A stretch of DNA of 26,634 bases from a virus, in the IMG/VR virus record IMGVR_UViG_3300044655_000964, positions 1 through 26,634 of that record; one strand, 5' to 3'. The notes beneath the pieces were generated by a model, which searched no databases, was not told the origin of the DNA, and was given only the letters and a program-made list of their open reading frames with translations. This document shows positions 2,246-24,536 of the stretch, one piece after another. The first letter of the stretch is position 1. The number at the start of each line of letters is the position of its first letter. The position numbers were made by a program, and so were the translations under genes.

Positions 2246-4767
<2,522 letters not shown>

Positions 4768-4772
4768 TACAA

Positions 4773-6611
4773 ATGGCAAATAATAGAATATCATACGCAT
4801 CTAGGGATTATCAGTCAATCAGGACCGAGCTCTTGAATTATACTAAAACTTACTATCCTGACTTAATCCAAGACTTTAACGATGCTTCGGTCTTCTCCGT
4901 ATTCATTGATTTAAACGCCGCGATTGCGGACAACTTACATTATAACATTGACCGAAGTATTCAGGAGACTGTTTTACAATATGCTCAACAAAGGTCATCA
5001 GTTTATAACATAGCCAGAACCTACGGTTTAAAATTACCAGGACAAAGACCATCAGTTGCTTTAGTTGATTTCTCAATTACAGTCCCTGCTTTTGGTGATA
5101 AAGAAGATGAAAGATATCTTGGAACATTGACAAGAGGTTCACAAGTTGTTGGAGCCGGAATTGTTTTTGAAAATGTTTATGACATTGATTTTGCTTCACC
5201 ATATAATTCTCAAGGTTTTCCCAATAGATTAAAAATACCAAACTTTAACTCAAATAATATTTTAGTTAATTATACAATCACAAAAAGAGAAATTGTTGTA
5301 AATGGTATTACAAAGGTATTCAAACGAGTTATTGGTGCAAATGATGTTAAACCATTCTTTGAATTATTTTTACCTGAAAAAAATGTGTTAGGCATTACAA
5401 GTGTATTATTAAAGAATGGTACACAATATACAAACACACCAACAACTGCAGAGTTTTTAGGTGTTGATAATAGATGGTATGAAGTGGATGCATTGGCTGA
5501 AGATAGAGTCTTTATTGAAGACCCTGCAAAAGTTTCTGACCAACCTGGTATTAAAGTTGGTAAGTATATCCAAACTCAAGATAGATTTATTACCGAATAT
5601 ACACCTGAAGGATTTAAGAAAATGACATTTGGTGGTGGTACCAATACCGCACAAGACCAATTGAACCAGTTCACAACTTTAGGTACAACATTAGAACTTC
5701 AAAAATATTCTAACAATTTCTCATTAGGTTCAACATTAACACCAAATTCAACATTGTTCATTCAATATAGAGTTGGTGGTGGATTGGCAACAAACTTAGG
5801 AACAAACGTAATCAATCAAATTGGTACTGTTTCATTCTTTGTTAATGGTCCATCTGAGACAACAAACTCAGCGGTAGTTAATTCATTAAGATGTGTTAAC
5901 GTAACTGCGGCGGTAGGTGGAGCGGGTATTCCATCATTAGAGGAAATTAGAAACTATGTATCATTTAATTTTGCAGCTCAAAAGAGAGCGGTTACCGTAC
6001 AGGATTACGAATCAATTATTAGAAACATGCCAGCTCAATTTGGAGCACCCGCAAAAGTATCTATAACAGAAAATGATAATAAAATTTTAATTCAAATTTT
6101 ATCTTACGATACTTCAGGTAAATTAACCAATATTGTTTCAAATACTTTAAGACAAAACATTGCAAATTATTTATCAAACTACCGAATGATGAATGATTAT
6201 ATTTCAATATTCAGTGCTGAGGTTATTGACTTGAGTGTTGATGTTGCGATTGTCTTAGATTCAGCTCAAAACTCAGGACAAGTTATTTCAAGTGTTATTG
6301 ATAAAATATCTGCATACTTTAACCCTCTATCAAGACAATTAGGTCAGAATGTTTATCTATCCGAGATTAGAAGTATTATTCAAAATACAAATGGGGTATT
6401 AACCGTTTCAACTTTAGATGTGTTTAATGAAGTTGGTGGTCAATATTCATCGGCAGAAACCTCTATGGAATACTCAGACCCAGAATTAAAACTTATTGGT
6501 CCTGTTGATGATACCATATTTGCTCAACCATCACAAGTGTATCAGATTAGATATCCAGGTAAAGACATTAGAGTTTCGGTTAAGAACTTCCAATCAATTA
6601 CTTTTTCTTAA
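4773..6611 (+). CDS. gp6/baseplate J-like wedge protein
   Basis: A 612-residue baseplate wedge protein. The N-terminus (ISYASRDYQSIRTELLNYTK, then DFNDASVFSVFIDLNAAIAD at about 31-50) is typical of T4 gp6-like proteins, and the C-terminal half (FAAQKRAVTVQDYESIIRNM, starting near residue 390) carries the signature seen in baseplate J/gp6 family members. The length is close to T4 gp6 (660). In T4, gp6 forms the ring linking the wedges around the hub and contacts gp25 and gp7. The gene directly follows the gp25-like gene. No signal peptide or membrane segment is present. The assignment is from family pattern and neighbour order; no alignment was run. Confidence 0.85.
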   Translation: MANNRISYASRDYQSIRTELLNYTKTYYPDLIQDFNDASVFSVFIDLNAAIADNLHYNIDRSIQETVLQYAQQRSSVYNIARTYGLKLPGQRPSVALVDFSITVPAFGDKEDERYLGTLTRGSQVVGAGIVFENVYDIDFASPYNSQGFPNRLKIPNFNSNNILVNYTITKREIVVNGITKVFKRVIGANDVKPFFELFLPEKNVLGITSVLLKNGTQYTNTPTTAEFLGVDNRWYEVDALAEDRVFIEDPAKVSDQPGIKVGKYIQTQDRFITEYTPEGFKKMTFGGGTNTAQDQLNQFTTLGTTLELQKYSNNFSLGSTLTPNSTLFIQYRVGGGLATNLGTNVINQIGTVSFFVNGPSETTNSAVVNSLRCVNVTAAVGGAGIPSLEEIRNYVSFNFAAQKRAVTVQDYESIIRNMPAQFGAPAKVSITENDNKILIQILSYDTSGKLTNIVSNTLRQNIANYLSNYRMMNDYISIFSAEVIDLSVDVAIVLDSAQNSGQVISSVIDKISAYFNPLSRQLGQNVYLSEIRSIIQNTNGVLTVSTLDVFNEVGGQYSSAETSMEYSDPELKLIGPVDDTIFAQPSQVYQIRYPGKDIRVSVKNFQSITFS

Positions 6612-6703: not shown

Positions 6704-9700
6704 ATGGGTCAATCATATAGAATAAGGACTGAATTAGGGGTTAACAAAACAATCAACGTACAATTAGACCAAGAGTTTGAACAGTTAGAGATTTTATCTT
6801 TAAAAATACAACAAGAAGATGTCTATATAAGAAGTTGTGCCGATTATGGAGTTATTGTTGGTAGGGTTACCGCTAACAATGGTTTTGGATTACCAAACGC
6901 AAGAGTGTCAATATTCATACCTATTACAACGGTAGATGAATCAAACCCAATTATTTCAAGTATATACCCATATAAATCACCTTCAGATAAAAATGAAGAT
7001 GGATATAGGTACAACTTATTACCTTATGAAAAATCTTATTCTGTTCACGCAGCAACAGGTACAATACCATCAAGATTGGATGCTCTGACAGGAACAACCG
7101 CTGTTGAAATATATGACAGATATTATAAGTTCACGGCCAAAACAAATGATAGTGGGGATTACATGATAATGGGGGTACCATTAGGGTTTCAAACTGTTGT
7201 TATGGATGTTGACTTGTCTGATATTGGAGAGTTTTCATTGACACCACAGGATTTAATTAGAATGGGTCTTGCAACTGAAGCTCAAGTTGCGGGTAATCGT
7301 TTTAGAACATCAACAGATTTAAATTCATTACCTCAAATTATTAATTTGGTTAAAGGTATTGAAATATCACCACTTTGGGGTGACCCTGATATTTGTGACA
7401 TTGCCATTAATCGTCTTGATTTTGATTTGAGAGACGAGGCAAATGTTAATATACAACCAACATCTGTTTTTATGGGTTCAATTTATTCCACTTCAGACGC
7501 TTACCGAGTTAGGAGAAATGCAAAACCTAAAGATGATATGGGTAATCTTTGTAGTTTACAATCAGGACCTGGACAAATATTAGCAATTAGACAAACCATC
7601 CAACAAGATACTATTGGTAATCCAATACTGGAACAATATCAATTAGAACAATCTGGAAATATTATTGATGGTGATGGTGTTTGGTTAACTGAATTACCAA
7701 TGAACTTAGATTATTATATAACTAATGAATTTGGTGAAAGAGTTATATCAAATGACCCAACAATAGGTATTCCAACTAAGGCAAAATATAGATTTAAAAT
7801 TAAATGGACTCAACCAACGGCATTAACTGAACAAACAAGACGACCATATTTTTTAGTTCCAAATATTAAAGAGTATGGATGGACAAGTTCGGTAATTGAC
7901 CCAAATTTACAATTTAACCCATCGTCTAACGCAGAATTGGCTGGTTCATATTATTTTGGATTAGATTGGACCGGATACACAAATACTCAAGCGGCAATAA
8001 ATTGTGATGATACTTTTTATCAATTTGACTTTAATAAAGTTTACACGGTTTCAGGGTTAATTGATGAATTTAAAAATGGTGGAAGAGGTAGGTTTATTGG
8101 GATTAAAGAAATTGACAGTCAAGATTGTGAAAGTACTATTAATAAATTTCCTGTAAATGAAGGTTTTAGAAATTTTGATTTTATTTTCTTTCTATTTGCA
8201 ATTTTAATGCAATTGGTTCAAATAATTGGTATCCCATTATTAATTGTTTATCATATTGCTGCGGCAATTTTAGAAAATTATGCGAAACCTTTAATTATTG
8301 CATTAATTGGGTGGATTATTAAAAACGTTATTGCGTTTGGATTTTTGGTTGCGGTTTATATTGCGTTAATTATTGCGTCTTTTGGTGTTAGTATTGCGGG
8401 GGTAGTATCTGCGGTACTACAGTTGACCGTATGGACAATTTTGTTAATTAAAGCAAAGAAAATAAAAAAATTCATTGAACAACTAAGGTTTGGACCTTTT
8501 AAATTACCAATGGTGACTTATCCCGATTGTCAGGCTTGTGAATGTGACCCAGAGATTCTACAGTCTTCTACAAACGCCACTGAGTCTTTTTTAGTTAGTC
8601 AATTATCTAATTCATCGGCATATTATGAAAATTTAGTTAAGGCTCAAGAAAGGGCAACATCACAATCTCCAAGTGATGATACTTACGAAGCGAACAATTC
8701 ATTATATGCTCAAATTTTAAGTGAGGCACTTGCAGGATTTGGTTCTAGTAATACTAATCCATCTGCATACAAAAATGGTGTGAGTTCTATTGTTACATTT
8801 CCTGACAGCGATAATACTCGAAGATTTGCTGTTTCAAAAACAATAACACCAGGAGAAAGGATAAACACTTTTAATGTTAGAAATAAATATTTCCAAGGGA
8901 TTAATAGAATAAAAGCTACTTTTGCTTCAGATGTAAATAATCCTGTAGGTTTGTATCATTATGATAATACTTTAACTATATTATCACCTGAAGAATTTGA
9001 ACCAGGTACTCTATTAACTTTTGTGAATCCATCATTAACCACAGATAAAAATTATTTGTGGACAGGAACTACTGGTGGTTCAGTGTTACAAGGAATAAAT
9101 GGTAGAATTCAAACTGACCAATTTACTACTCAAGTAAAATATGCAATTCCAACAGATAATAGTCAAACTACGGAATCGACTACATTATATACTATACCAA
9201 GTGCAACAACTGAGTGTGTTGATAGTATTACTATAGATGTTACTACTTCAGGTACGGTGACATATAATACTTGTAATGGGGGGATTGTTATTTATAGTGC
9301 GTTAACATTAGGGTCTCATACAATAACAAATGTTAATTGTATAAGTACAACTAATTTAGGTGGTACTGCAGAATATACGGTAGTTAGTTTTGGTGAAAGT
9401 TGTCAAAGATATGTATATCCTTCAGATATTGAATACTATCAAGTACTTACTGCTATTACAATTACAACAAATATTGTTAATGGTGTACCACAATATTCAA
9501 TACCTAATTTAGGTAGTGGTGTTGGGTTTTGGAACTATTTAACTGCACCAAGCTCAGTTCAAATTTATAAAGAAGTTAAAGGCAATTTAGGTAGTGATGG
9601 GTGGCTTGAAGATGGAGCACAACAAAATTTAGCCATAAGTAATTTTGCGGATTTTTCTGACTCAAAAATTTTAATTTTACAAAGAGGGGTTGACCCATAT

Positions 9701-11887
9701 TCCCCAACGTTAATTAATCAATATGGTATTGGTAAGATATTGGGATACCCAAATGAAAACGACGTAATCATTACGGCAACAACAAAAATGAATATACCTG
9801 TTCAAAAATTACCAACAGGTTCAGTAACTACTGTTCCACAACATAACGTTCAAAATAATATTTATTTTTCATCTTATGTTTATAGTCCTGGTGTGGTAGG
9901 TTCAACAACACCTGGTTTACAATTTTCTTCATACACCACAAGTAATGTTGGATTTTATGGGGCATTAGATTCAACAACTCCCGATAGAACTATTAATTCA
10001 GGTCCAACATTTGGTAATGTTTTTGTACCAGCAACAGTATTCATTGATAAAAGTCCGTCATATGGAATAGCTAATGGTGTGGTAACCAAAACATCGAATG
10101 ATTATTATTCATCCGCAATATCGGTTAGTAAGTATGATACCGCCGAGGATTTATCGGGTGGTGCAATATTAAAGTTAACTCCATTAGTTTTAAATACTAT
10201 TATTTTAAATGTGATATTCCCGTTGCTCTCTTATAAGGCATATAATGACCCACCGAGTAGGGTATACTTTAGCCCAATTTTATATCCAACATTAACGGGT
10301 TCAAGTGCGTTGAACATTGTCAATTCTTCAAGAAATGTTATGAGAACTGACAGATTACCATCATCTGATTATATCGATAGTGGTGTTATAAATGGTAGTG
10401 TTAGTTTATTACAACAAAACGTAGGATTTTCTGCTTATATTATTGGTGGACAAGGAGCACCCATTAATGTAAGTGGTTACGATACAGGTGCATCTCAAGT
10501 TAATGCTGATATTGAGGGTCAACTTGCTAGTGTCAATGTGTTAGAGTCATTAAGTACTTGTGAGAGAATGGTTGGTCTTAATTGTTATAGTGGTAATAGT
10601 GTTAATTTTGGTGTTACTGCGGGATGTCAAAGTAGTGATTCAGTTCAAAATGGGTGTTATGTTTTTGCGGTTAATCCTTGGACAGATTTACAAAAAGATT
10701 TAAGGGCGTTTAGTGAGTGGGGATTTAGATTTAGATTTTTCTATGGGTTATGTCGAGGTGTTTTATCTCAAACATTTACCAACAATTGGGTAAATGGTTC
10801 ATTATACACATTTCCAATACAAGTTGATACTTATTTTGACCAACAAAATAAACCATTACCACCTCAGTTTGCCAAAGAACTTGTTTATTTTGATGATAAG
10901 ACTAATAACTTCTATTACAGAAGTTCACCTTATTTGTCAGGAACAACATCACCAAGATTTATTGGAAGACCAACTCTTGGATTAATAAACCCCGTTAATG
11001 ACAGAAATTTATTGTTCCCAACAACAATTGTTAATTTGGGTATTAAAGATGATTTTTATCAAGAAATAATTTTTGACCCGTCAGCTAAAGGGTACATAAT
11101 GAATACATTAAATCCAACAAGTTATTCGGATACTTCAGATTTGGTAAATTTATTTGTTATATCTCGTATTACAGACGAAGGATATTTGGCTCAACTTTTT
11201 ACTTTTGGTAATAATGGATTGAATCAATTATTTACCAGACCCGATAGAAGAATTGATGGTGATTTAGCTCAAAGTATGTCAATTAATTCTGAGTATGGTG
11301 TAATACCTTTTTCACCTGAGTTTTATAGTGTTTATGGTACAAGTAATGACCCTGTTGTTATTTTGGGTGGACTTGATGACCCAACAATGGGTGTTTTCTT
11401 TTCTTCTACCACAGTTGATTTACAAAACAAAGACTTCTTAACGCCTGGAGTTATTGATTTTAGACCATCAAATAATGCAAATGCTATAACATATCCTTAT
11501 GGTATTAAATCTCAGTATGTACCGTTTTATCAGTGGGGATTAAATCAACCATCAATACAAAGTATTTTTGGTTCACAATACAATGATTGGGTTACAAATC
11601 AATCATCAAATATTAATACTTCAGGTATTTTTGGATATAACTATCAATCATTAGATAGAAGAAATATTGGGTCGCCAAGTTATTTTATTGGGTCAAATTC
11701 ACAAGTAAGTGATATATACGAAAGAGGTTATATCTTTAATGTAAACCCTAATGGTTCATATTCTTACAATGCGGGAACTTATCCAAATAAATTCTTAGTT
11801 AGCGCTCCATTCCATTTTTATTTTGGAGTAAATAAAGGATTAACTGCGTTAGATAAATTTAAAACAAAATATTCTGTAGGTGAATAA
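6704..11887 (+). CDS. Giant baseplate-region protein with carboxypeptidase-regulatory-like domain and hydrophobic helices
   Basis: A 1727-residue protein I cannot assign to a named family. Residues about 49-171 resemble a carboxypeptidase-regulatory-like beta sandwich (GVIVGRVTANNGFGLPNARVS, then NDSGDYMIMGVPLG), split by an insertion of about 60 residues. Residues about 491-582 are strikingly hydrophobic, with three or four potential membrane-spanning helices broken by short polar turns, followed by a basic stretch (KAKKIKKF, 583-590) and a C-x2-C-x-C cluster (609-614). A Cys-bounded beta-like segment at 838-900 looks like an inserted domain. The rest is Ser/Thr/Asn/Tyr-rich and beta-like, typical of tail proteins. 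It follows the gp6-like gene and its last 8 bases overlap the next start. A virion role is likely from context. A membrane-active role in DNA entry is a hypothesis. Confidence 0.85.
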   Translation: MGQSYRIRTELGVNKTINVQLDQEFEQLEILSLKIQQEDVYIRSCADYGVIVGRVTANNGFGLPNARVSIFIPITTVDESNPIISSIYPYKSPSDKNEDGYRYNLLPYEKSYSVHAATGTIPSRLDALTGTTAVEIYDRYYKFTAKTNDSGDYMIMGVPLGFQTVVMDVDLSDIGEFSLTPQDLIRMGLATEAQVAGNRFRTSTDLNSLPQIINLVKGIEISPLWGDPDICDIAINRLDFDLRDEANVNIQPTSVFMGSIYSTSDAYRVRRNAKPKDDMGNLCSLQSGPGQILAIRQTIQQDTIGNPILEQYQLEQSGNIIDGDGVWLTELPMNLDYYITNEFGERVISNDPTIGIPTKAKYRFKIKWTQPTALTEQTRRPYFLVPNIKEYGWTSSVIDPNLQFNPSSNAELAGSYYFGLDWTGYTNTQAAINCDDTFYQFDFNKVYTVSGLIDEFKNGGRGRFIGIKEIDSQDCESTINKFPVNEGFRNFDFIFFLFAILMQLVQIIGIPLLIVYHIAAAILENYAKPLIIALIGWIIKNVIAFGFLVAVYIALIIASFGVSIAGVVSAVLQLTVWTILLIKAKKIKKFIEQLRFGPFKLPMVTYPDCQACECDPEILQSSTNATESFLVSQLSNSSAYYENLVKAQERATSQSPSDDTYEANNSLYAQILSEALAGFGSSNTNPSAYKNGVSSIVTFPDSDNTRRFAVSKTITPGERINTFNVRNKYFQGINRIKATFASDVNNPVGLYHYDNTLTILSPEEFEPGTLLTFVNPSLTTDKNYLWTGTTGGSVLQGINGRIQTDQFTTQVKYAIPTDNSQTTESTTLYTIPSATTECVDSITIDVTTSGTVTYNTCNGGIVIYSALTLGSHTITNVNCISTTNLGGTAEYTVVSFGESCQRYVYPSDIEYYQVLTAITITTNIVNGVPQYSIPNLGSGVGFWNYLTAPSSVQIYKEVKGNLGSDGWLEDGAQQNLAISNFADFSDSKILILQRGVDPYSPTLINQYGIGKILGYPNENDVIITATTKMNIPVQKLPTGSVTTVPQHNVQNNIYFSSYVYSPGVVGSTTPGLQFSSYTTSNVGFYGALDSTTPDRTINSGPTFGNVFVPATVFIDKSPSYGIANGVVTKTSNDYYSSAISVSKYDTAEDLSGGAILKLTPLVLNTIILNVIFPLLSYKAYNDPPSRVYFSPILYPTLTGSSALNIVNSSRNVMRTDRLPSSDYIDSGVINGSVSLLQQNVGFSAYIIGGQGAPINVSGYDTGASQVNADIEGQLASVNVLESLSTCERMVGLNCYSGNSVNFGVTAGCQSSDSVQNGCYVFAVNPWTDLQKDLRAFSEWGFRFRFFYGLCRGVLSQTFTNNWVNGSLYTFPIQVDTYFDQQNKPLPPQFAKELVYFDDKTNNFYYRSSPYLSGTTSPRFIGRPTLGLINPVNDRNLLFPTTIVNLGIKDDFYQEIIFDPSAKGYIMNTLNPTSYSDTSDLVNLFVISRITDEGYLAQLFTFGNNGLNQLFTRPDRRIDGDLAQSMSINSEYGVIPFSPEFYSVYGTSNDPVVILGGLDDPTMGVFFSSTTVDLQNKDFLTPGVIDFRPSNNANAITYPYGIKSQYVPFYQWGLNQPSIQSIFGSQYNDWVTNQSSNINTSGIFGYNYQSLDRRNIGSPSYFIGSNSQVSDIYERGYIFNVNPNGSYSYNAGTYPNKFLVSAPFHFYFGVNKGLTALDKFKTKYSVGE
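8174..8449 (+). other. Segment encoding the hydrophobic helix cluster of the 1727-residue protein
   Basis: Encodes residues 491-582. Nearly every residue is Ile, Leu, Val, Phe, Ala or Gly. Polar interruptions occur near residues 524-529 (ENYAKP) and 540-541 (KN), and Lys-rich sequence follows from 583. By eye this gives segments at about 491-516, 517-540, 542-562 and 563-582. Such a run is unusual inside a large, otherwise soluble-looking tail protein. Confidence 0.7.
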
Positions 11888-13568
11888 GTTTACAATTATA
11901 CCGAGTAGTCAGGAATATCAGGCGGCTCCATCAGTTGACCAAGATATCACTATTACTTTAGAGCAACAGAGTCAACAAATGGTTGAATATGACCGAAGTC
12001 AAAGTATTAGTTTGGCTCAAGTATTTGATGATGAAAGACAAAGTAGTGGTATATTCAGACCCACATTCAAAGTTAATTATTTGTATGGTAACACATATAC
12101 AGGTACTACTGAATATGTTCCATTTAGAAATACTTTATATTATGTTAATCCCGAACAATCTTTTGTTAGTACTATATGGAAAGGATTTCCACAATATTAT
12201 GAATTTGATTTTTATAGGCCTAACATATCTGACCAACATATTAATTATGTTGCAAAAAGTGCCTACACATACAATTGGACATATTATATTAGTTATGCTC
12301 AAAGTAACAATTATTTAAAACAAATGTCATACACATTAAATAATAGTAGTTATGATTGGTATGCGTCCGAAGGTATTCCATTTTCAATTATTAATGGAAC
12401 TCAAAATGGTAGTAATGTTATTAGATTTCAATGTATTGCACCACACGGATTAACTGTTGGTGAGTATGTTGAATTACCTTTCTTTTATAATCAATTAAAT
12501 TTATTCCAAGTTTATTCATTGGGTAATAACCAATTAGATAGTGACCCCTACGTTTTTAACCTATTCAATTTTGGATATACGGGTACCACATTTGCCAATG
12601 GAGTTACGGGAACATTTAAAAGAGTTATTAATCCTGATAATTTATTGGAAACAAAGTCAAAATATTATGTGAGGGAACATAAAATTTTAACAAATGTTGG
12701 AGATTGTATTATGGTTAAAAATGCGTTTGAAAAGAATCTATTTAACGAAGAGAGAAAATTTGAATATAGTTCAATAACACCAAACCAAATTTCAAGAATA
12801 TCTCAAAAGACTAGTAGTAATTCATATAATGTTACGGTCAATTACGATTTAGATTTAAATGGAGTGTTGGATAATCAAAAACGACCTGTTAGTGAATTAT
12901 TTTTAACTATTATTAATAAAGGATATACGGGATATTTTAATCAACCAAATAATGGTATAGGGTTAAAACAAGGTTGGGAGTTTAATTTGACAAGGCCAAT
13001 AAGTTCTTGGTGGGATTTAAAAAATACTTATTCCGATACAAACATACAAACATCAAATTATACTTTGACTAGTGGTGTTACAAAAACATTTTATTATAAT
13101 CAAGATTTAAAAAAAGATGATTTAATTGATGGTGACTTTTGTGAGTGGAATGATTATAACCAAATTGAAAGGGTTATTTCACCGTACTATCAAAAACTGA
13201 ATTACAATCAAAACGTATTTCAAACTACTGAAACATATTCAACAAATAGTCCTGGATTTTATTACAAACCCCACACATCAATGAGGATTAGAGTTTTCTC
13301 TGATTATGTTGAGACTGCGGTTGCGGAACAAGTTGAAAATGTGCCTTTCTATTCTTTTTATTCTTCTGCCGACCAATCGTTTAGATGGAGAGACATATAT
13401 ACTTATGGGTTTAAGGATAACCTTGAAAGGGGTGTTGATTTCCCATTTATGAACAGCGCTCAATATCCATATCAAGAAGCCATCTTTAGATTAATACCTG
13501 AAGGAATAAACTATAACTCTTTAGGGGTTCAGTACCCAATTAAGCCATTGTTTGATGAGTGTGAATAA
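11880..13568 (+). CDS. Phage structural protein, 562 residues, function unknown
   Basis: The start is GTG at 11880, overlapping the previous stop by 8 bases (GTGAATAA). No in-frame ATG lies as close to the junction, and the N-terminal sequence (MNKFTIIPSSQEYQ) looks like real protein. The product is rich in Tyr, Asn, Phe and Ser, with the beta-strand periodicity usual for tail and baseplate proteins. Around residues 172-202 it has a segment of the type I-x-F-x-C-x-x-x-H-G-L-x-x-G-[ED]-x-V, a beta element common in phage tail proteins. There is no signal peptide or membrane segment. It sits in a coupled block with the next two genes. Probably a baseplate or tail-associated protein; I do not recognise a named family. 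Confidence 0.8.
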   Translation: MNKFTIIPSSQEYQAAPSVDQDITITLEQQSQQMVEYDRSQSISLAQVFDDERQSSGIFRPTFKVNYLYGNTYTGTTEYVPFRNTLYYVNPEQSFVSTIWKGFPQYYEFDFYRPNISDQHINYVAKSAYTYNWTYYISYAQSNNYLKQMSYTLNNSSYDWYASEGIPFSIINGTQNGSNVIRFQCIAPHGLTVGEYVELPFFYNQLNLFQVYSLGNNQLDSDPYVFNLFNFGYTGTTFANGVTGTFKRVINPDNLLETKSKYYVREHKILTNVGDCIMVKNAFEKNLFNEERKFEYSSITPNQISRISQKTSSNSYNVTVNYDLDLNGVLDNQKRPVSELFLTIINKGYTGYFNQPNNGIGLKQGWEFNLTRPISSWWDLKNTYSDTNIQTSNYTLTSGVTKTFYYNQDLKKDDLIDGDFCEWNDYNQIERVISPYYQKLNYNQNVFQTTETYSTNSPGFYYKPHTSMRIRVFSDYVETAVAEQVENVPFYSFYSSADQSFRWRDIYTYGFKDNLERGVDFPFMNSAQYPYQEAIFRLIPEGINYNSLGVQYPIKPLFDECE

Positions 13569-15509: not shown

Positions 15510-16418
15510 ATGGCAATCGGTTCATACGGCACAATTAGACCTTCAGACGTTTCACCTGAAGACGTAGAGATTATATTAAATTATACTCCATCAAGGGATG
15601 TTACGAGTAATTTCGTCCTAACACAACTTGATGCACAAACAATTCTTAAACCTTATTTCAACAACACAGAAACAGGTGGAAACGCTGGTGTTGAGGTTTT
15701 GGGTGGATTATACAACTTAACATTACCTGCTGAGCAGTTCAACGCTCTTGGGATTTACACACTATACTTAAGACCCGCACAAATCAGAACAAGAATTACT
15801 GATTGTGGTGTGTTAAGTGCTTTGCCAAACGTAAAAGGAATTGTGATTGATATTTCAAATGTTCCAACACAATATCAAAATAAATTTGTTCCACAAGGAT
15901 TGGTTGGATTTAGAGTTGAATATTTAAATCCTGATGGTTCAAAAATACCAAATTTCTTTAGAGTTATTACATCATCGTTCTTTTGTGAACCTGTGGTGAC
16001 AAACCAAACAAATACAACACAAAAAGCAATTAGATATAGATATGTTGATGGAAATTCAAATTTAATATTCTTGACTTTATCACCATCATCATCCCCAACT
16101 AACAATCCAAACGCAACACCATTTATTGGTCAGCCAAATCAAAACATTATTATTTCAAATACATTTTTTAACCCAATTACTTTGGAAGTTGAAATGGTTG
16201 AATACGACGTATCATCTCTTGCAATTGCTCTTTATGGTAATCAAACCAAATCAATTGATGATGGTGTTTATACAATATATGACTCTGAAAATAACATATA
16301 CAGACAATACAACTTGTATGAAATTAGAGACCAATTTAATGCATTGTTATATGAGGTTAGACAAAGTAGAGGTAATAATATTGATTTCAGTAAAAACTTT
16401 ACAAACATAACTGGTTAA
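15510..16418 (+). CDS. Phage structural protein, 302 residues, function unknown
   Basis: Starts at an ATG after an A-rich leader with no Shine-Dalgarno. The N-terminus (MAIGSYGTIRPSDVSPEDVEI) and the mostly beta sequence, with a Pro/Ser/Asn-rich loop near residues 190-205 (LSPSSSPTNNPNATP), suggest a virion component. The C-terminus (YNLYEIRDQFNALLYEVRQS) is helical and charged and could be an assembly contact. No enzymatic motif, signal peptide or membrane segment is visible. Its stop shares one base with the start of the gp7-like gene (TAATG), so the two are likely made together and may interact. I do not recognise the family. Confidence 0.78.
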   Translation: MAIGSYGTIRPSDVSPEDVEIILNYTPSRDVTSNFVLTQLDAQTILKPYFNNTETGGNAGVEVLGGLYNLTLPAEQFNALGIYTLYLRPAQIRTRITDCGVLSALPNVKGIVIDISNVPTQYQNKFVPQGLVGFRVEYLNPDGSKIPNFFRVITSSFFCEPVVTNQTNTTQKAIRYRYVDGNSNLIFLTLSPSSSPTNNPNATPFIGQPNQNIIISNTFFNPITLEVEMVEYDVSSLAIALYGNQTKSIDDGVYTIYDSENNIYRQYNLYEIRDQFNALLYEVRQSRGNNIDFSKNFTNITG

Positions 16419-19402
16419 TGGCAGTAAACACAACAAATACTAAATACTTTTATCCACCAAGACCAGGTAATGGCGGGGGGACTTTCTCTGACAACATTGT
16501 AGGATTACAAACTGTCGAGGGTGGAGGACTTACGCAAGGTAATTTTGAGTTTACAACAGGAGTAACAGAAAAAGTTAATCGTACATTCAATGTCGGAGCG
16601 TTCTCAGAACCAATGACTTTGGATATGATGAATATTGATAGTGTTGAAGAGAGTCGAAGAATACTTGCAACTCAATTTAGAGTTTATCCAAACTTTGATA
16701 TTACTCAAGTTCTTAACTTTTCGATGTATGGTTCTCTATCTGAAAGATTTAGGGTTTCAATTACTCGTGTTATTAATTATTTCCCAGCGTCTTTAGATAT
16801 TATATTTACTAATAGTGATTTCTCAACAGGTAATACTGCTTATGATATTGTTTATGATGTTCAAAATGATGAAACATATTTCAAGGTTAATGTTGATAGA
16901 ATAAAAAATCCATTTGATATTGATTATTCTATTAGTGCGTCAACTAACTTAACATTGAGAGAGTTAGATGTTTCGCCATATAGAAATCTTAACAACACTT
17001 ATTTAGATTATTGTGTTAGCATTGATGATAATATCTATAAGGTTTTGGCGTTTATTCCGTCTACCACATTAACATCAGGTGATATTACATTTTACGTTTC
17101 TGGTTCACCATTTGGAACAACGGCAACCACAATCCAACAAGAATATCAAATCAGACCAAATGATTATATTGTTGACAAAATATTTCAAGAAAGTTTTGAT
17201 GAGGTTGAAAAATTCTTACTTAATAGATTAGTTAGACCTGAATATACTGCGGTATTTCAAGTACCACAACAAAATGAATTTGGTCAAACATATACGGATT
17301 ATCAACAAGTGACTTGGCCAAAAGATGGTCCTTGGAACTTAGATATTAGTTCATTCTTATTTGACTCATACTTGGAACAAATCCAAGCAATTGCGGTTAA
17401 TTTGGATTCGTTTAAGACCAATTTAATTTCAAGATTCTTAATTTCAGATTCTTTAAAAGAATTTGATACTTTGGGTAGAAAAGTTGAAAAGATATTCCAA
17501 ATTTACGGTAGAAGTTTTGACCAAATAAAACAATTTATCGAAGGGTTGGCTTACATGAATTCTGTAAACTATAATCCATCAAATGATATACCTTCACAAT
17601 TATTGGCTAATTTATCTCAAACATTAGGATGGTCATCTAATTTTTCACCAATTACAAATGAGGATTTCTTATCATCTGTTTTTGGTAATACATCGACACC
17701 AACTTATCCTGGTTATGCTCGAGCTTTAACGCCAACAGAATTAAACTATGCATATTATAGAAATTTAATTCTTAATGCCTCATACCTTTTTAAATCAAAA
17801 GGTACGAGAAGGTCTGTTGAATTTTTATTAAGATTGATTGGAGCACCTGATTCACTAATTGAATATAATGAACACATTTATTTGGCTGACCAAAAAATTA
17901 ATCTTGACCAGTTCTATAATCAATGGGCTCAAATTTCAGGTGGTACTTACGTTCAAGAAACACCATCTTATGCTGTAGGTCAAACATATAGTATTTATGG
18001 ACAAATTTATACTGCATTTACAGAAACCGCAACATATACTGATACTAATATAACATTAGCAGCATACCCTATAGATTTTGAAGGATATCCAAAAGCTCCT
18101 GTCAATACGGAAACATACTTCTTCCAAATTGGTGCTGGTTGGTATGAAACTACACCATCACATAGAAGTCCTGATAATGTTGTACTTACGGGAAATGTTT
18201 ACACAGGACAAAACTTTAGTATCCAAACACAATTACAACCGTTTACTTACGGTCAGACTTATTTGAATAGATTTAGGGACTTCCCTTATATGACGGAAGG
18301 ATTTAAACTTCAAAAAGTTGTTGATAATAATAAATCATGGTTAGCGGACGATGATAAAATTAGAGTTTCAACTCAAGGAGATTACAATGCATACTACTTT
18401 ATCGATAATGAAAAATTAGTATTAAACGTAAAGAACGTTGACATATTCTTAAATCCGGCCCAAGGTCTTGTTTATGATGTTTGGGACCAATCAAGAAGAT
18501 ATGATTACCCAATTCCTGAATCAGGTTTAACCGTTGGTTATCCTGTACCAGGTGGTGTTGATTGGACATATGTTGACCCTAAGCCTAAGAAGAAAACATT
18601 CTTTGAATTCTCTCAAACTTTTTGGCAGAATATGATTAACACTCGAAACAGACAATACATCTCTGATGGTAAAACGGGTGGTTATCCTACATTACAATCT
18701 ATTTGGTGGAAATACATCGAATCAGAACAAACTGTCGGGTTGCCCAACAACAAGTACACGTATCAAAAGTTAATCGATTACGTTAATGGTATAGGTCCTT
18801 ATTGGACTAAGTTGGTGGAACAGATGGTTCCCGCAACAACCATTTGGAATGGCGGGGTTAGATTCGAAAACTCTGTACTACATAAACAAAAGTTTGTTTA
18901 TAGAAGACAAAGAGGTTGTCAGTTTATACCAGTACCTGTTGACCCATGTTATATTATATCAAACATTTTTGATTACACATGTAATTCAGAGTATGTTGAA
19001 TTTTATATTTATCCGTGGTTAAATGGTGATATTAATGTATCTGATTTTAATAGTATTCTTGCAAATAGAATTAATAATATGTTATCATCAAGTGGACTAA
19101 CACTTAATGAATGTTATCAAAATTCAGTTCAGACAGAATGGTATGTTGATTTAAGAATTAATAACCAAATCATAATTCAAGATAGTTTTTATAATGGGTA
19201 TGGTTATAATGATGTACCAACAGATTCGCAGTGGAGAAACGCTTTAATAGATTATCTACCAACTTTATATGGTTATGGCTACACATATTTCTTAAATGGT
19301 AATACATTAACAATAACTAATTTAGGATGTGTTTCCCAAAATTTACAAGAAACGGTAGTTTTAAACGTAGGAATAAATATTAATATAAATTGTACTAGAT
19401 AA
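16418..19402 (+). CDS. gp7/P2 gpI-like baseplate wedge protein, 994 residues
   Basis: The centre (about residues 300-480) is alpha-helical with the pattern Y-Y-R-N-L-I-x-N-A-x-Y-L-[FY]-K-[SG]-K-G-T-x-x-[SA]-[VI]-E-x-L-L-R-L-[IL]-G, here K461-G462-T463 and G475. This K-G-T...L-x-x-x-G helix is typical of phage tail protein I (P2 gpI), regarded as the counterpart of T4 gp7. The length is close to T4 gp7 (1032), and gp25- and gp6-like genes lie upstream. The N-terminal 300 residues are beta-rich. After residue 480, beta-rich sequence appears to be added. The last 150 residues (from about 845, with cysteines near both ends) look like a separate small domain. Both ends overlap neighbouring genes by one base (TAATG). 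The wedge assignment is probable from motif, size and context. Confidence 0.72.
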   Translation: MAVNTTNTKYFYPPRPGNGGGTFSDNIVGLQTVEGGGLTQGNFEFTTGVTEKVNRTFNVGAFSEPMTLDMMNIDSVEESRRILATQFRVYPNFDITQVLNFSMYGSLSERFRVSITRVINYFPASLDIIFTNSDFSTGNTAYDIVYDVQNDETYFKVNVDRIKNPFDIDYSISASTNLTLRELDVSPYRNLNNTYLDYCVSIDDNIYKVLAFIPSTTLTSGDITFYVSGSPFGTTATTIQQEYQIRPNDYIVDKIFQESFDEVEKFLLNRLVRPEYTAVFQVPQQNEFGQTYTDYQQVTWPKDGPWNLDISSFLFDSYLEQIQAIAVNLDSFKTNLISRFLISDSLKEFDTLGRKVEKIFQIYGRSFDQIKQFIEGLAYMNSVNYNPSNDIPSQLLANLSQTLGWSSNFSPITNEDFLSSVFGNTSTPTYPGYARALTPTELNYAYYRNLILNASYLFKSKGTRRSVEFLLRLIGAPDSLIEYNEHIYLADQKINLDQFYNQWAQISGGTYVQETPSYAVGQTYSIYGQIYTAFTETATYTDTNITLAAYPIDFEGYPKAPVNTETYFFQIGAGWYETTPSHRSPDNVVLTGNVYTGQNFSIQTQLQPFTYGQTYLNRFRDFPYMTEGFKLQKVVDNNKSWLADDDKIRVSTQGDYNAYYFIDNEKLVLNVKNVDIFLNPAQGLVYDVWDQSRRYDYPIPESGLTVGYPVPGGVDWTYVDPKPKKKTFFEFSQTFWQNMINTRNRQYISDGKTGGYPTLQSIWWKYIESEQTVGLPNNKYTYQKLIDYVNGIGPYWTKLVEQMVPATTIWNGGVRFENSVLHKQKFVYRRQRGCQFIPVPVDPCYIISNIFDYTCNSEYVEFYIYPWLNGDINVSDFNSILANRINNMLSSSGLTLNECYQNSVQTEWYVDLRINNQIIIQDSFYNGYGYNDVPTDSQWRNALIDYLPTLYGYGYTYFLNGNTLTITNLGCVSQNLQETVVLNVGINININCTR

Positions 19403-21537
19403 TGTCAGTGTTTAATTATAACATAGCGGTTACGGGGGATTGTTCAAATACAAACTCAGGGTCAATTAGTTTGACTTTGACTGGTGGTACTCCACCATAT
19501 ACAGTACAATGGTTAAGTCCTGTATTATCACCTGATATTGTTACAACATCACCTGCGGTTAAAACGGGATTAAGCGCCACAACATATGCGGTTAGGGTTA
19601 ATGATAGTACCCTACCAACAAATAGTGAATTTTACATTAATATACCAGTATCAAGTGGGGTATGTGCAAGTATTCTTGGAGTTATGGGAACAACATGTTC
19701 TGAAAATAACGGGGCAGTTACAGGAACATCGACATCTGATTATTCCTCAACAAGTTTTTATTTATATCATGGAGATGGGGTATTTTCTCAATCTGCAACT
19801 ACAAGCCAATCTACCGTTGAATTTGGAAGCCTAACAGCGGGAACATATTATATAACTGTTCTTGACTTGGGTGGTTGTACAGGACAAAGTGCCAATTTTA
19901 TCGTTGAAGATTCCGATACATTAGATTATGGACTATATGTGGTACCAAACTCATCTTGCGGAGGTAGTGCTATGGGTAAAATTATGATTACTGGTTTAAC
20001 AGGTAGTCCACCATATACATATCTTTGGAACACAAGTGCCACAGGGTCAACTGTAACTGGATTAACTGCGGGAAATTACTCTGTTAGTGTCACAGATTTT
20101 TATGGATGTGTGACAACAAAGTCTGCAACAATTGTTGATGTACCGCCAATAGGGTTGGGAATATTTACAGCAACGGAACCAACTTGTTTTTCCGCCGATG
20201 GAGTTTTAACCATTCAAATTACGGGAGGAACCGCACCTTATTACTATTCTGCATCCACAGGTCAAGTGGTGGTCCAATATCCGACATCATGGTCAATATC
20301 TGGATTATCACCAGGAAATTATTCTTTCCAAGTTACCGATGCAGCTTTATGTACAATCACGGTAGGTACAACTCTAACATCACCAAATGGTATAACGTCT
20401 GTTAGTATTTCAACACAAGGTTCAACATGTTCAAGTAATGGTGGTTCAATAACTGTTTCGGTTATTGGAGGTACATCGCCTTATATCTATACTTTAATTT
20501 ATCCTAATGGGAATACATTAAATGTTAGTAATAATCAAACCACTCAATTATTTTCAAATTTAGCTTCGGGAACATATTCAGTTTCGGTTCAAGATGAATC
20601 GGGATGTTTTTATATGGATGAGGTTACATTATATGCTACTAATACCTTTACAATTTCCACTGAAACTACAGGAACAACTTGCAATCGTGATAATGGTTAT
20701 ATCACAGTTAACAAGAGTGATGGGGGAGAATCTCCATTTGACTATTCATTAGATGGTTTAGTTAATATAAATGATACTACATTATCTGCAATTACATTTG
20801 ATAATGTTTCATCGGGACAACATACAATTACCGTTACAGATAGTACGGGTTGTACCCAAACTACTCAAGTATATGTTGGGGAAAGTTCACCGTTAGATTA
20901 TAGTTTATATAGCACTTCCTGTGGTACAGGTTCTGATGGGATGTTAACTGCATTTATCTCATCTGGTACTCCACCTTTCGTATTTACTTGGTCTGATAAT
21001 ATACCTAATAACCCACAAGAAATTACTGTCACAGGTTTAACAGGTGGAACATACAATTTAACAATAGTTGATGATAATGGATGTTCATTATCAAGAACTA
21101 CCAGTATTACTTGTGATGCGGCATATGTTTCTTATCAAACTTATGTAATGGGGTCTCAAGTGTTTAACATTCAATCACAAACTAAGTTTGGATTGTTACA
21201 AATGTTGAATGTTGGATTTGATGATTTAACTTCGGGAAATACAAGTTGTAGTTTAATATCTGCAACTTTTACAGTTAAAGTTTCCGTAAATCCTTTAGGT
21301 ATAACAACAAGTGATACGTTCTTTACAACAACATCTTTAAATGTTGCACCAAGTGATAATGATTATTATGATACAGTTGTTAGTTTATTAAATACAATAC
21401 CTGGTATTGGTGTAATAACGGTAGATTCTGCCAATAATCAAATAATAATTCAAACAAGTCCAACTAACAATAGTTTAAATGGTCAGGAAATTATTATTGA
21501 ATTGATAATCGTTTATGATACAATTTGTTTAACATGA
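19402..21537 (+). CDS. SprB-repeat adhesin-like protein, 711 residues
   Basis: Seven repeats of the SprB type, known from the Flavobacterium gliding adhesin SprB: a Cys near the start, G-[GS]-[IV]-x-[IV]-x-[IV]-x-G-G-T-x-P-Y in the middle, L-x-x-G-x-Y-x-[IV]-x-V-x-D near the end, and a closing G-C. Approximate units are residues 14-88, 99-159, 186-236, 262-317, 343-402, 427-484 and 507-561; the first and second are the most divergent. Residues 575-711 form a different beta-like C-terminal domain. There is no signal peptide, lipobox, or type IX secretion tail recognisable by eye, so it is more likely a virion fibre than a secreted protein. It starts within the gp7-like stop (TAATG) and its stop overlaps the next start (ATGA). 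Role inferred: binding host surface glycans or adhesins. Confidence 0.85.
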   Translation: MSVFNYNIAVTGDCSNTNSGSISLTLTGGTPPYTVQWLSPVLSPDIVTTSPAVKTGLSATTYAVRVNDSTLPTNSEFYINIPVSSGVCASILGVMGTTCSENNGAVTGTSTSDYSSTSFYLYHGDGVFSQSATTSQSTVEFGSLTAGTYYITVLDLGGCTGQSANFIVEDSDTLDYGLYVVPNSSCGGSAMGKIMITGLTGSPPYTYLWNTSATGSTVTGLTAGNYSVSVTDFYGCVTTKSATIVDVPPIGLGIFTATEPTCFSADGVLTIQITGGTAPYYYSASTGQVVVQYPTSWSISGLSPGNYSFQVTDAALCTITVGTTLTSPNGITSVSISTQGSTCSSNGGSITVSVIGGTSPYIYTLIYPNGNTLNVSNNQTTQLFSNLASGTYSVSVQDESGCFYMDEVTLYATNTFTISTETTGTTCNRDNGYITVNKSDGGESPFDYSLDGLVNINDTTLSAITFDNVSSGQHTITVTDSTGCTQTTQVYVGESSPLDYSLYSTSCGTGSDGMLTAFISSGTPPFVFTWSDNIPNNPQEITVTGLTGGTYNLTIVDDNGCSLSRTTSITCDAAYVSYQTYVMGSQVFNIQSQTKFGLLQMLNVGFDDLTSGNTSCSLISATFTVKVSVNPLGITTSDTFFTTTSLNVAPSDNDYYDTVVSLLNTIPGIGVITVDSANNQIIIQTSPTNNSLNGQEIIIELIIVYDTICLT
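19441..21084 (+). repeat. Seven SprB-like protein repeats (divergent at DNA level)
   Basis: Encodes residues 14-561 of the 711-residue protein in units of about 50-75 residues. Units share Cys, Gly-Gly-Thr-x-Pro-Tyr and G-x-Y-x-[IV]-x-V-x-D positions but have diverged in DNA, so the array is old rather than a recent amplification. Confidence 0.8.
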
Positions 21538-21968: not shown

Positions 21969-24536
21969 ATGTCGACTTACTCTATATTAGTAACAAATAA
22001 TGCACCTGGATGTGGAACTGAAATTGAACAACAATTAACAGTAACAGGTTGTACCACATATATTGTTAGATTAGCATCTAATTCAAACGCCTTAGGACCA
22101 TTTAATGTTTATGTTGACAATGTAATTTATTATTCCGCACAAACAAGAACAGACATGTTTAATGGGGTTGTTGTAACCCTTGAGTGTGTAACGCCAACAC
22201 CTACACCAACACCATCAGTAACTTCAATTGCCACAACCCCAACGACTACACCAACAAATACACAAACACCAACTAATACTGAGACGCCAACTCAAACCCA
22301 AACACCAACCAATACTGAAACACCAACTCAAACTCAAACACCGACAAATACTGCTACTCAGACTCAAACACCGACAGTAACTCCAACAAATACACAAACA
22401 CCAACTAATACTGAGACGCCAACTCAAACCCAAACACCAACCAATACTGAAACACCAACTCAAACTCAAACATCTACTCAAACCCAAACTCCAACTCAAA
22501 CCCAAACTCCAACGGTAACTACAACTGCAACACTTACACCTTCTCCGACAGCATCTGTTGGGTTAACTCCTACTGCGACTGAAACTCAAACTCCTACACC
22601 AACTGAAACACCAACAAATACACCTACTAATACTGAGACTCCAACATTAACCCCTACTCCAAGTGTCACACCCGCTGGTGTTATAATTAATCTTGAAGCA
22701 TTCTATTCGTCTGGTTCAATTTATGCAGGTTATGGTGCCACTGCGTCAACATTGTCTGATGTTGCACTTAACATATCATTTATTGACGAAATAGAAACAA
22801 CGGGAATCCCAATTTTTAATTCGGTAAATATTGTAATTCCGTTTGGGGAAACAACAGGATTTACACAAACCGTATTAAACGATGTTTATACCGACGCAAC
22901 TCAAATATCTATTTTTAATAACCTTATAGTTAGTGCGCCTGGTTCAATTTATACTTATGCATTTATTACAGGATATACGTATAACGCAACACCTACGCCT
23001 ACACCAACACAAACTCAAACGCCAACTAATACTGAAACTCCAACAAACACACCTACAAATACTGAAACACCGACACAAACTCAAACACCTACAAATACTG
23101 AAACACCGACACAAACTCAAACACCTACTAATACTGAGACTCCAACACAAACTCCTACAGAAACACCAACACAAACTCAAACACCGACTAATACTGAAAC
23201 ACCAACATCAACTCAGACACCGACTAATACAGAAACTCAAACACCAACACCAAGTACAACTGCAACTGCAGGTTCAACACCTACTGCAACTGAAACTCAA
23301 ACACCTACCCCAACTGAAACACCAACTCAGACACCAACAAATACTGAAACTCCAACTCAGACACCAACAAATACTGAAACTCCAACTCCAACACAAACTC
23401 AGACACCAACAAATACTGAAACTCCAACTCAGACACCAACAAATACCGAGACTCCAACACAAACTCAAACACCTACTAATACTGAGACGCCAACTCAAAC
23501 TCAAACTCCAACTAATACTGAAACACCAACAAATACACCAACAAATACCGAGACGCCAACTCAAACTCAGACACCTACAAATACAGAAACACCTACTCAA
23601 ACTCAGACACCAACAAATACTGAGACTCCAACAAATACTCCAACAAATACCGAGACGCCAACTCAAACTCAAACACCAACTAACACAGAAACACCAACTC
23701 AAACTCAAACACCAACTAATACTGAGACTCCAACTAATACACCTACAAATACTGAAACGCCAACCCAAACTCAGACACCAACTAACACTGAAACGCCAAC
23801 CCAAACTCAGACACCAACAAATACTGAGACTCCAACGAATACACCAACACCAACGGTAACTCAGACACCAACTAACACAGAAACACCAACTCAAACACCT
23901 ACACCAACACCAACTAATCTACCATTCTCGGCTTACATTTTCCCTGAACCAAGTGATGTTAGTTCAACTAATAATCTTGGTCAATATATGTCAGATAATG
24001 GTGCCGTTTCATTCTATGGTTATTGGCTTAATGGTCAGGTTGCTCCGGCCGCAGGACCAAATTATTCTCCTGATTTGGACGTTTATGCTCATTTCTCAGG
24101 TTGGTCAACTACTGTTGATGGGTTCCTAACGCCTGTTACAACTTTGGCAGGACCAATAAGACAAGTTTCTGGTTCGGGTAATGATTCTTATGGTTGTGGA
24201 CAAAATCAATATACGTTTGGTACTATCGCGGTAGCACCTGGACAAGTAGACCCTAGTATTCAATACTTCTATTCAATTTGGGTACCATTGGCGGGTGTTG
24301 GAGGTACAATGACAAATATGACGGTAGATATTGGTACTGGTAGTGCATGTGCAACTAATGTTATCAATGATGGTACGCCTGACCCAGGTTTATCAACACA
24401 AAACGTTATCGTAACTTCAGGAGCAGCCATTCCTGCAGGGACTTATAGAGTATTATGGTTAGGTTCGTATGCTGAACAACCAGTGGCACCTCCATTGTCT
24501 GTTACAATCTACTTTAAGGGGGACACTAAAACATAA
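21969..24536 (+). CDS. Fibre-like protein with two Pro/Thr-rich stalks, 855 residues
   Basis: Five parts are visible. Residues 1-74 are a small beta-like domain with cysteines (GCGTEIEQQLTVTGC, then LGPFNVYVDN). Residues 75-235 are the first Pro/Thr/Gln/Asn/Glu stalk. Residues 236-340 are a beta-rich globular domain. Residues 341-649 are the second stalk, with units such as TPTNTETPTQTQ. Residues 650-855 are a Gly/Ser/aromatic-rich globular C-terminal domain. Such Pro/Thr repeats form extended spacers, so the protein looks like a stalked adhesin or tail-fibre accessory, with the C-terminal domain as the likely tip. There is no signal peptide, anchor or enzyme motif. The gene is preceded by a T-rich gap and start box and followed by another fibre-like gene. 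Virion location is inferred from context. Confidence 0.82.
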   Translation: MSTYSILVTNNAPGCGTEIEQQLTVTGCTTYIVRLASNSNALGPFNVYVDNVIYYSAQTRTDMFNGVVVTLECVTPTPTPTPSVTSIATTPTTTPTNTQTPTNTETPTQTQTPTNTETPTQTQTPTNTATQTQTPTVTPTNTQTPTNTETPTQTQTPTNTETPTQTQTSTQTQTPTQTQTPTVTTTATLTPSPTASVGLTPTATETQTPTPTETPTNTPTNTETPTLTPTPSVTPAGVIINLEAFYSSGSIYAGYGATASTLSDVALNISFIDEIETTGIPIFNSVNIVIPFGETTGFTQTVLNDVYTDATQISIFNNLIVSAPGSIYTYAFITGYTYNATPTPTPTQTQTPTNTETPTNTPTNTETPTQTQTPTNTETPTQTQTPTNTETPTQTPTETPTQTQTPTNTETPTSTQTPTNTETQTPTPSTTATAGSTPTATETQTPTPTETPTQTPTNTETPTQTPTNTETPTPTQTQTPTNTETPTQTPTNTETPTQTQTPTNTETPTQTQTPTNTETPTNTPTNTETPTQTQTPTNTETPTQTQTPTNTETPTNTPTNTETPTQTQTPTNTETPTQTQTPTNTETPTNTPTNTETPTQTQTPTNTETPTQTQTPTNTETPTNTPTPTVTQTPTNTETPTQTPTPTPTNLPFSAYIFPEPSDVSSTNNLGQYMSDNGAVSFYGYWLNGQVAPAAGPNYSPDLDVYAHFSGWSTTVDGFLTPVTTLAGPIRQVSGSGNDSYGCGQNQYTFGTIAVAPGQVDPSIQYFYSIWVPLAGVGGTMTNMTVDIGTGSACATNVINDGTPDPGLSTQNVIVTSGAAIPAGTYRVLWLGSYAEQPVAPPLSVTIYFKGDTKT
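22191..22673 (+). repeat. First Pro/Thr-rich repeat block
   Basis: Encodes residues 75-235 with short T-P-T-x units, often 12-residue (36-base) cycles. It contains an exact 90-base direct repeat at 22251-22340 and 22383-22472. Elsewhere Thr and Pro codons vary freely. Confidence 0.85.
22251..22472 (+). repeat. Exact 90-base direct repeat, copies 132 bases apart
   Basis: Copies at 22251-22340 and 22383-22472 are identical by base-by-base reading and differ at the first base outside on each side. In a region where neighbouring units differ at many silent positions, this points to a recent duplication. Confidence 0.85.
22989..23915 (+). repeat. Second Pro/Thr-rich repeat block
   Basis: Encodes residues 341-649, mostly alternating TPTNTETP and TQTQ/TNTP elements. 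Many near-copies differ only at the third base of Thr, Pro or Glu codons. It has the same composition as the first block but is nearly twice as long. Confidence 0.85.

Follow-up and report, generated by a model that had tools for sequence, protein, structure and literature searches.

The window (the whole stretch of DNA analysed, 26,634 nucleotides of the IMG/VR virus record IMGVR_UViG_3300044655_000964) carries a gene encoding a giant baseplate-cluster protein of 1727 amino acids (6704-11887), the founder of a family with relatives in IMG/VR. This gene, its features given below, and the gp25-like, gp6-like, 562-aa and 994-aa genes are on the + strand. DnaB-like, ribonucleotide-reductase, gp25-like and gp6-like genes lie upstream. 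The gp25-like baseplate wedge gene (4297-4767) matches PF04965 (E 9.6e-12) and phrog_261 (E 3.3e-18). The gp6/Baseplate_J-like wedge gene (4773-6611; phrog_219, E 8.5e-24; PF04865, E 5.5e-8) directly precedes the giant gene. The type of ribonucleotide reductase encoded between the DnaB and gp25 genes differs among relatives: a single 619-aa gene in the window (2246-4105; phrog_367, with a weak match to a class II insertion domain), class I small and large subunit genes at the same place in the related record G003 (87489-90897).

Downstream, a 562-aa gene (11880-13568) overlaps the end of the giant gene and is a candidate partner. A 994-aa gene (16418-19402) is wedge-like by its position. It is related to the large gene that follows gp6 in Microcystis phage Mel-JY01 (hmmsearch E 1.8e-9; hhalign probability 90%, E 1.4e-6, 172 columns); profile comparison gave no link between this gene and T4 gp7. 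The next gene encodes a 711-aa protein (19402-21537) with SprB repeats (PF13573, E 9.1e-23, four stretches). SprB repeats are known from gliding adhesins of Bacteroidota, and the 711-aa protein is possibly a host-mimicking or host-binding tail protein. An 855-aa protein (21969-24536, phrog_15511) has several related genes dispersed over the 326-kb record G011 (300047-303238, 150094-151338 and 99959-102391). Four neighbour families, used as profiles against PDB, retrieved nothing credible.

Gene-position counts were drawn from 150 loci, near-copies included. The gp6-like gene lies directly 5′ of the giant gene in 130 of the 132 loci with enough flank; in the two others, L050 and L051, the two genes are separated by some 700 additional bases. 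The 562-aa gene lies immediately 3′ in 95 of 103 loci, with an identical short overlap in 80 of these 95. Among the eight exceptions, six have a longer called overlap and two (L072, L112) have a broken giant ORF. The earlier note had placed the gene between gp6-like and gp7-like wedge genes and had proposed to look for its hydrophobic segment at the same gene position in related phages. The gp6-like side of this description is confirmed in the window and across the loci; the gp7-like side is not, the wedge-like 994-aa gene being five genes downstream and devoid of a link to gp7.

Relatives of the giant protein were found in 146 IMG/VR stretches with one pattern set and in at least 587 with another. 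As the same giant protein is found in many independent records, an artefact of coding or assembly is ruled out. No match was found in PHROGs or Pfam, in PDB by profile search (E<=10), or between the window protein and GenBank phages. N- and C-terminal consensus pieces retrieved four and one GenBank phage records, respectively (E<=10), every one with an E of 3 or worse. Among GTDB contigs, 35 stretches fit a pattern and none was confirmed as a relative. The giant-protein profile retrieved nothing from the three nearest gp6-bearing records, in a search run without a positive control. The proteins read number 115: 52 of the 78 loci found with the first pattern, 62 of 72 new loci, and the window. 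Of the 72 new loci, 63 were chosen, and L112 was left out for an in-frame stop. The loci left unread are partial or near-copies, picked by eye. Eighty-six of the 115 proteins were chosen by eye for alignment, of which 83 were kept once rows more than 93% alike had been removed; the tree includes 81, two without the anchor motif being left out.

Positions 8174-8449 encode exactly residues 491-582 of the giant protein, described in the earlier note as almost entirely hydrophobic, with room for three or four membrane-spanning helices, and as followed by a Lys-rich stretch and a C-x2-C-x-C cluster. The hydrophobic run, the Lys-rich stretch and the cysteine cluster are borne out. The best 92-residue Kyte-Doolittle (KD) mean of the protein, +1.97, is that of residues 491-582 and was matched by none of 1000 shuffles. 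The peak 19-mer (KD 2.70) is unremarkable by itself because shuffles of the protein, whose maxima averaged 1.97, reached up to 3.08. The run includes three non-overlapping 19-mers above KD 1.6. On the Wimley-White octanol scale, shuffles had 12-29 segments at a cut of -1 kcal/mol, so the stricter cut of -8 kcal/mol was adopted. Three segments fall below this cut (starts 493, 542 and 564), the first helix being at -14.0 kcal/mol at 493, and a weaker one starts at 521 (-3.2 kcal/mol). Three such segments inside 100 residues were found in 3 of 1000 shuffles. The Lys-rich stretch, KAKKIKK, corresponds to residues 583-589 (8450-8470), and the cysteine motif to residues 609-614 (C609, C612, C614; 8528-8545). 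A second, isolated hydrophobic segment (residues 1158-1176, 10175-10231; -10.6 kcal/mol) adjoins bin 1161-1200, which varies more than any other 40-residue bin of the protein.

AlphaFold2 gave a modest model of residues 1-715 from 83 sequences (mean pLDDT 63.5). Residues 45-249 (6836-7450) are predicted to form a transthyretin/carboxypeptidase-regulatory-like beta sandwich with an insertion. In VIA comparison they match 2nsm (Z 9.4, 79 residues, rmsd 2.1), other matches being tied within 1. Pfam CarboxypepD_reg has no match in the window protein and matches below cut-off in two relatives (L018, E 0.019; L161, E 0.08). The hydrophobic run is modelled as two helices (493-558 and 564-593); pLDDT in this block is 71-94 and its flanks are of low confidence. 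VIA matches to this hairpin (Z up to 9.7) are at noise level for helices and were set aside. The model of residues 700-1727 (mean pLDDT 75.0) is beta-rich and mostly well predicted up to about residue 1220; its beta-rich part (residues 700-1230, 8801-10393) has no fold match. Foldseek (E<=0.001) retrieved nothing for residues 1-715, nor for residues 700-1727 (PDB and viral structures), and the best VIA match of the latter has a Z of only 3.8.

The lack of a family or structure match and the presence of a hydrophobic segment would also suit a phage-made membrane protein absent from the virion and acting in the cell, for example in phage exclusion or envelope change. This is very unlikely, given the fixed place of the gene between the gp6-like gene and further tail-type genes, its overlap with the downstream neighbour, the conservation of the protein along its full length and its beta-rich multidomain make-up.

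Hydrophobic helices are also found in T4. Among 23 of its head and tail proteins, several have 19-mers at KD 1.6 or above (gp7, 2.07; gp29, 2.20; gp18, 1.71; gp11, 1.66), and no 92-residue mean exceeds 0.45. Such a helix is not necessarily a membrane helix: in the wedge protein gp7, the 19-mer with a KD of 2.07 scores -10.7 kcal/mol. In the T4 record (NC_000866), gene 7 bears the note 'C-terminus is predicted integral membrane domain', and hydropathy shows one helix, at residue 886. The giant protein is like gp7 in being large and encoded directly after gp6. It differs by its three helices instead of one, located at about one third of its length and not near the C-terminus, and hhalign gave a probability of 0.1% for the pair (one T4 sequence only). 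The giant protein is probably not simply a T4-type gp7, no similarity having been found with this one sequence and another gene fitting this role at least equally well.

The helices could be those of a buried oligomeric bundle that joins baseplate subunits without membrane contact. The single strongly hydrophobic helix of the wedge subunit gp7 is a precedent, the model includes a helical hairpin, and the first helix combines some amphipathic stretches (moment of 1.16-1.30, at 489 and 525) with polar residues kept in the alignment, Q506 being almost invariant. Yet the moment of stretch 543-560 is almost nil (0.26), and 92 residues at KD 1.97 are far over any of the 23 T4 proteins. Overall, the buried bundle is rather unlikely, the variability of the segment and the tape-measure contrast, both described below, also counting against it.

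C-x2-C-x-C is found in all 115 proteins read and is invariant in the 83 aligned relatives. In 115/115 it is preceded by one or more strong hydrophobic segments, and in 99 of these proteins no further segment is found elsewhere at the same cut. Homologues lacking the segment, which according to the earlier note would speak against its idea, were sought and none was found among the 115; a shortened form is found in 41 of 81 non-redundant relatives. The segment has two parts. The first hydrophobic helix (about residues 493-520, 8180-8263), delimited from the alignment, the Wimley-White scan and the model, is kept across relatives, L161 being the weakest case. The second part is a variable hydrophobic cassette (residues 521-600, 8264-8503) that includes the Lys-rich tail; its length and sequence vary and its hydrophobicity is kept. 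The span from the GFRNF-type motif to the YPxC motif is 50-151 residues (103 proteins in which both were found by pattern; 12 were done by eye). Among the 81 relatives, the cassette is long with an [LI]WN motif in 29, has extra cysteines in 22 and is of other forms in 30. The extra-Cys cassettes (e.g. L104, L108, L151) have three or more cysteines beyond C-x2-C-x-C, in a CxxC...C...C pattern; they possibly form a disulfide or metal site that replaces further hydrophobic helices.

Long and short cassettes switch 12 times on the tree of the N-terminal part (n=81; mean of shuffles, 27), at least six switches being forced by well-supported branches. Between the window and L010, residues 1-480 are 94% alike; nucleotide identity is 0.56 at residues 521-560 and 0.38 at residues 561-600. 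Over 63 close pairs, bins 521-560 and 561-600 are the second and third lowest of 43; bin 1161-1200 ranks below both, with linker bins not far off, so the cassette is not the sole variable part of the protein. Columns of less than 60% identity have a mean KD of +1.66 inside the segment (61 columns, 11% polar) and of -0.37 outside (191 columns, 34% polar): the cassette keeps its hydrophobicity where its sequence drifts. A packed core, as in a buried bundle, should resist exchange, but the number and the sequence of the helices in the second half change repeatedly. Against membrane insertion, on the other hand, count the shortened cassettes (41 of 81) and the 18 of 83 relatives in which only a single segment is found at KD 1.6; these are too few segments for a multi-helix hairpin in each subunit.

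The giant protein is itself rejected as a tape measure for its place, after gp6, and for its make-up. It has hydrophobic membrane-type segments; it is not encoded after the sheath and tube genes, and it is not a long helical rod according to the models, which are of moderate confidence and beta-rich on both sides of the segment. As stated in the earlier note, the gene is away from the usual tape-measure place, and another gene (598-647 aa) follows the sheath and tube genes. This protein (610 aa) is probably the tape measure, judging from its place and composition; it has no tape-measure profile match. In the records that carry the giant gene, the protein at this place has no 19-mer at KD 1.6 in 22/22 cases, which include several near-copies and one 290-aa fragment (24 records were queried and 18 matched, with this fragment and two near-copy pairs). 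Between the sheath gene and the 711-aa gene of four long records (106 ORFs of at least 80 aa), KD 1.8 is reached by the giant protein in all four and marginally by gp6 in two (1.81-1.89), and by no other ORF. In the 326-kb record (350 ORFs), the giant protein is the sole protein of at least 600 aa with two segments at KD 1.8. The gene after the 610-aa gene encodes a 1683-aa protein that weakly resembles the product of the large gene just after the tape measure gene of Flavobacterium phage immuto (E 0.0038). In G003, tail-cluster proteins of 1683 and 2563 aa (67894-72942 and 73258-80946) follow the tape-measure-like gene; neither has a credible PHROGs or Pfam match.

The nearest relatives according to gp6 (among six records in which gp6 is largely covered) are immuto, Mel-JY01 and LR756508, and all three lack the giant protein. 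At the tape-measure place, the annotated tape measure of immuto has five segments at KD 1.8, a protein of Mel-JY01 with a PHROGs tape-measure match (E 1.8e-9) has three, and an unannotated 1602-aa tape-measure candidate of LR756508 has four at KD 1.6 and one at 1.8. This contrast opposes one clade to three lineages, and does not amount to 25 independent cases. It is left unexplained by a buried bundle.

Several known systems resemble the giant protein in part. Like the tape measures of immuto (KNV73_gp037) and TP901-1, it is a long tail-cluster protein with clusters of membrane-type helices; unlike them, its gene follows gp6, its remainder is beta-rich and another gene occupies the tape-measure place. 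In TP901-1, infection requires the first hydrophobic region of the tape measure but not the second (PMC5099701), which is reminiscent of the constant and variable halves described here. Contractile machines are linked to membranes by other baseplate-cluster or fibre-like proteins, here compared by description: Cis12/Cis13 of tCIS, Cis13 being thylakoid-anchored with a putative transmembrane helix (PMC8894136), and Streptomyces CisA, encoded beside baseplate genes (PMC12237407). Such membrane-linked contractile systems, and the long N-terminal domain that precedes the segment, are in line with another function, in which the segment would, during assembly, tether the protein, and with it the nascent baseplate, to the inner membrane of the host cell. 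Unlike the giant protein, Cis13 and CisA are not from phages, have one transmembrane helix each and act in the producing cell. Assembly anchoring leaves unexplained the tape-measure segments of the relatives that lack the giant gene, and is quite improbable.

What is observed is a segment both conserved and variable, a constant gene position and a tape-measure-like protein free of such segments. From these, we infer a protein located in the virion that inserts in a membrane at entry. The giant protein would be a putative membrane-inserting tail element acting in place of tape-measure helices, a tentative reading whose chances are a little short of even. The earlier proposal of a membrane-penetrating or pore-forming baseplate component is thus upheld in part only: the fixed place, the segment in 115/115 relatives and the segment-free tape-measure-like proteins are in its favour. 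The helical cassette, lying between the conserved N-terminal part and the cysteine motif of a baseplate-cluster protein, would be folded away or packed between subunits in the virion. On infection, it would be released and would insert in a host membrane, the inner one being the likeliest, where it may help the tail tip or the DNA to pass, as proposed elsewhere for hydrophobic segments of tape measures. In this reading, the work would be done by the constant first helix. The second half, which varies, may tune the fit to the membrane or the contact with a host membrane protein, and would also suit escape from defences that watch injection.

In a broader and more doubtful version, unlikely as a whole, the membrane-crossing part of DNA delivery would have moved from the tape measure to a multi-copy baseplate protein, whose exchangeable cassette would form the inner-membrane passage and be changed between lineages for host membrane proteins or for escape from defences. 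Among lambda-like phages, one tape measure stands apart at residues 300-400, a stretch overlapping a ManYZ-bypass mutation. The tape measure is also the protein with which the SNIPE defence associates; no myovirus tested in that work was susceptible to SNIPE (PMC13190303). For deletions of hydrophobic regions in the TP901-1 tape measure, the authors favour chaperone recruitment over membrane insertion (PMC5099701), a caution that would apply to the giant-protein cassette too. Tail proteins with membrane segments, the membrane domain predicted for gp7 and membrane-anchored contractile systems are already known. In the literature consulted, mostly open-access with few preprints, no report of a phage baseplate protein with a cassette of this kind was found.

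The longest relative (G011) is 326 kb long with a GC content of 33.7%, and encodes bS21 on the strand opposite a nearby portal gene. In this it is like freshwater Bacteroidetes jumbo myophages encoding bS21, which are 293-331 kb long with a GC content of 31.0-33.7% and the same bS21 setting (PMC9723584). It is a difference from these phages that bS21 is found in only 3 of 12 long records, all of which are possibly fragments; the window does not include the bS21 region. The terms 'transmembrane' and 'tape measure' have 0 occurrences in the main text of PMC9723584. No Shine-Dalgarno-like stretch was seen by eye ahead of any of the 15 gene starts of the window; this and the SprB repeats both fit Bacteroidota. 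The phages are most likely a clade of jumbo myophages, for which we infer hosts in this phylum.

Inner-membrane passage of DNA from contractile-tailed phages is poorly understood. The present family belongs to an abundant group of uncultured jumbo phages in which a baseplate-cluster protein has membrane segments and the tape measure seemingly has none. If the proposed function is true, length measurement would be separated from membrane passage in these phages. A well-delimited segment would then be available for deletion or expression, and its variable site may record host or defence specificity.
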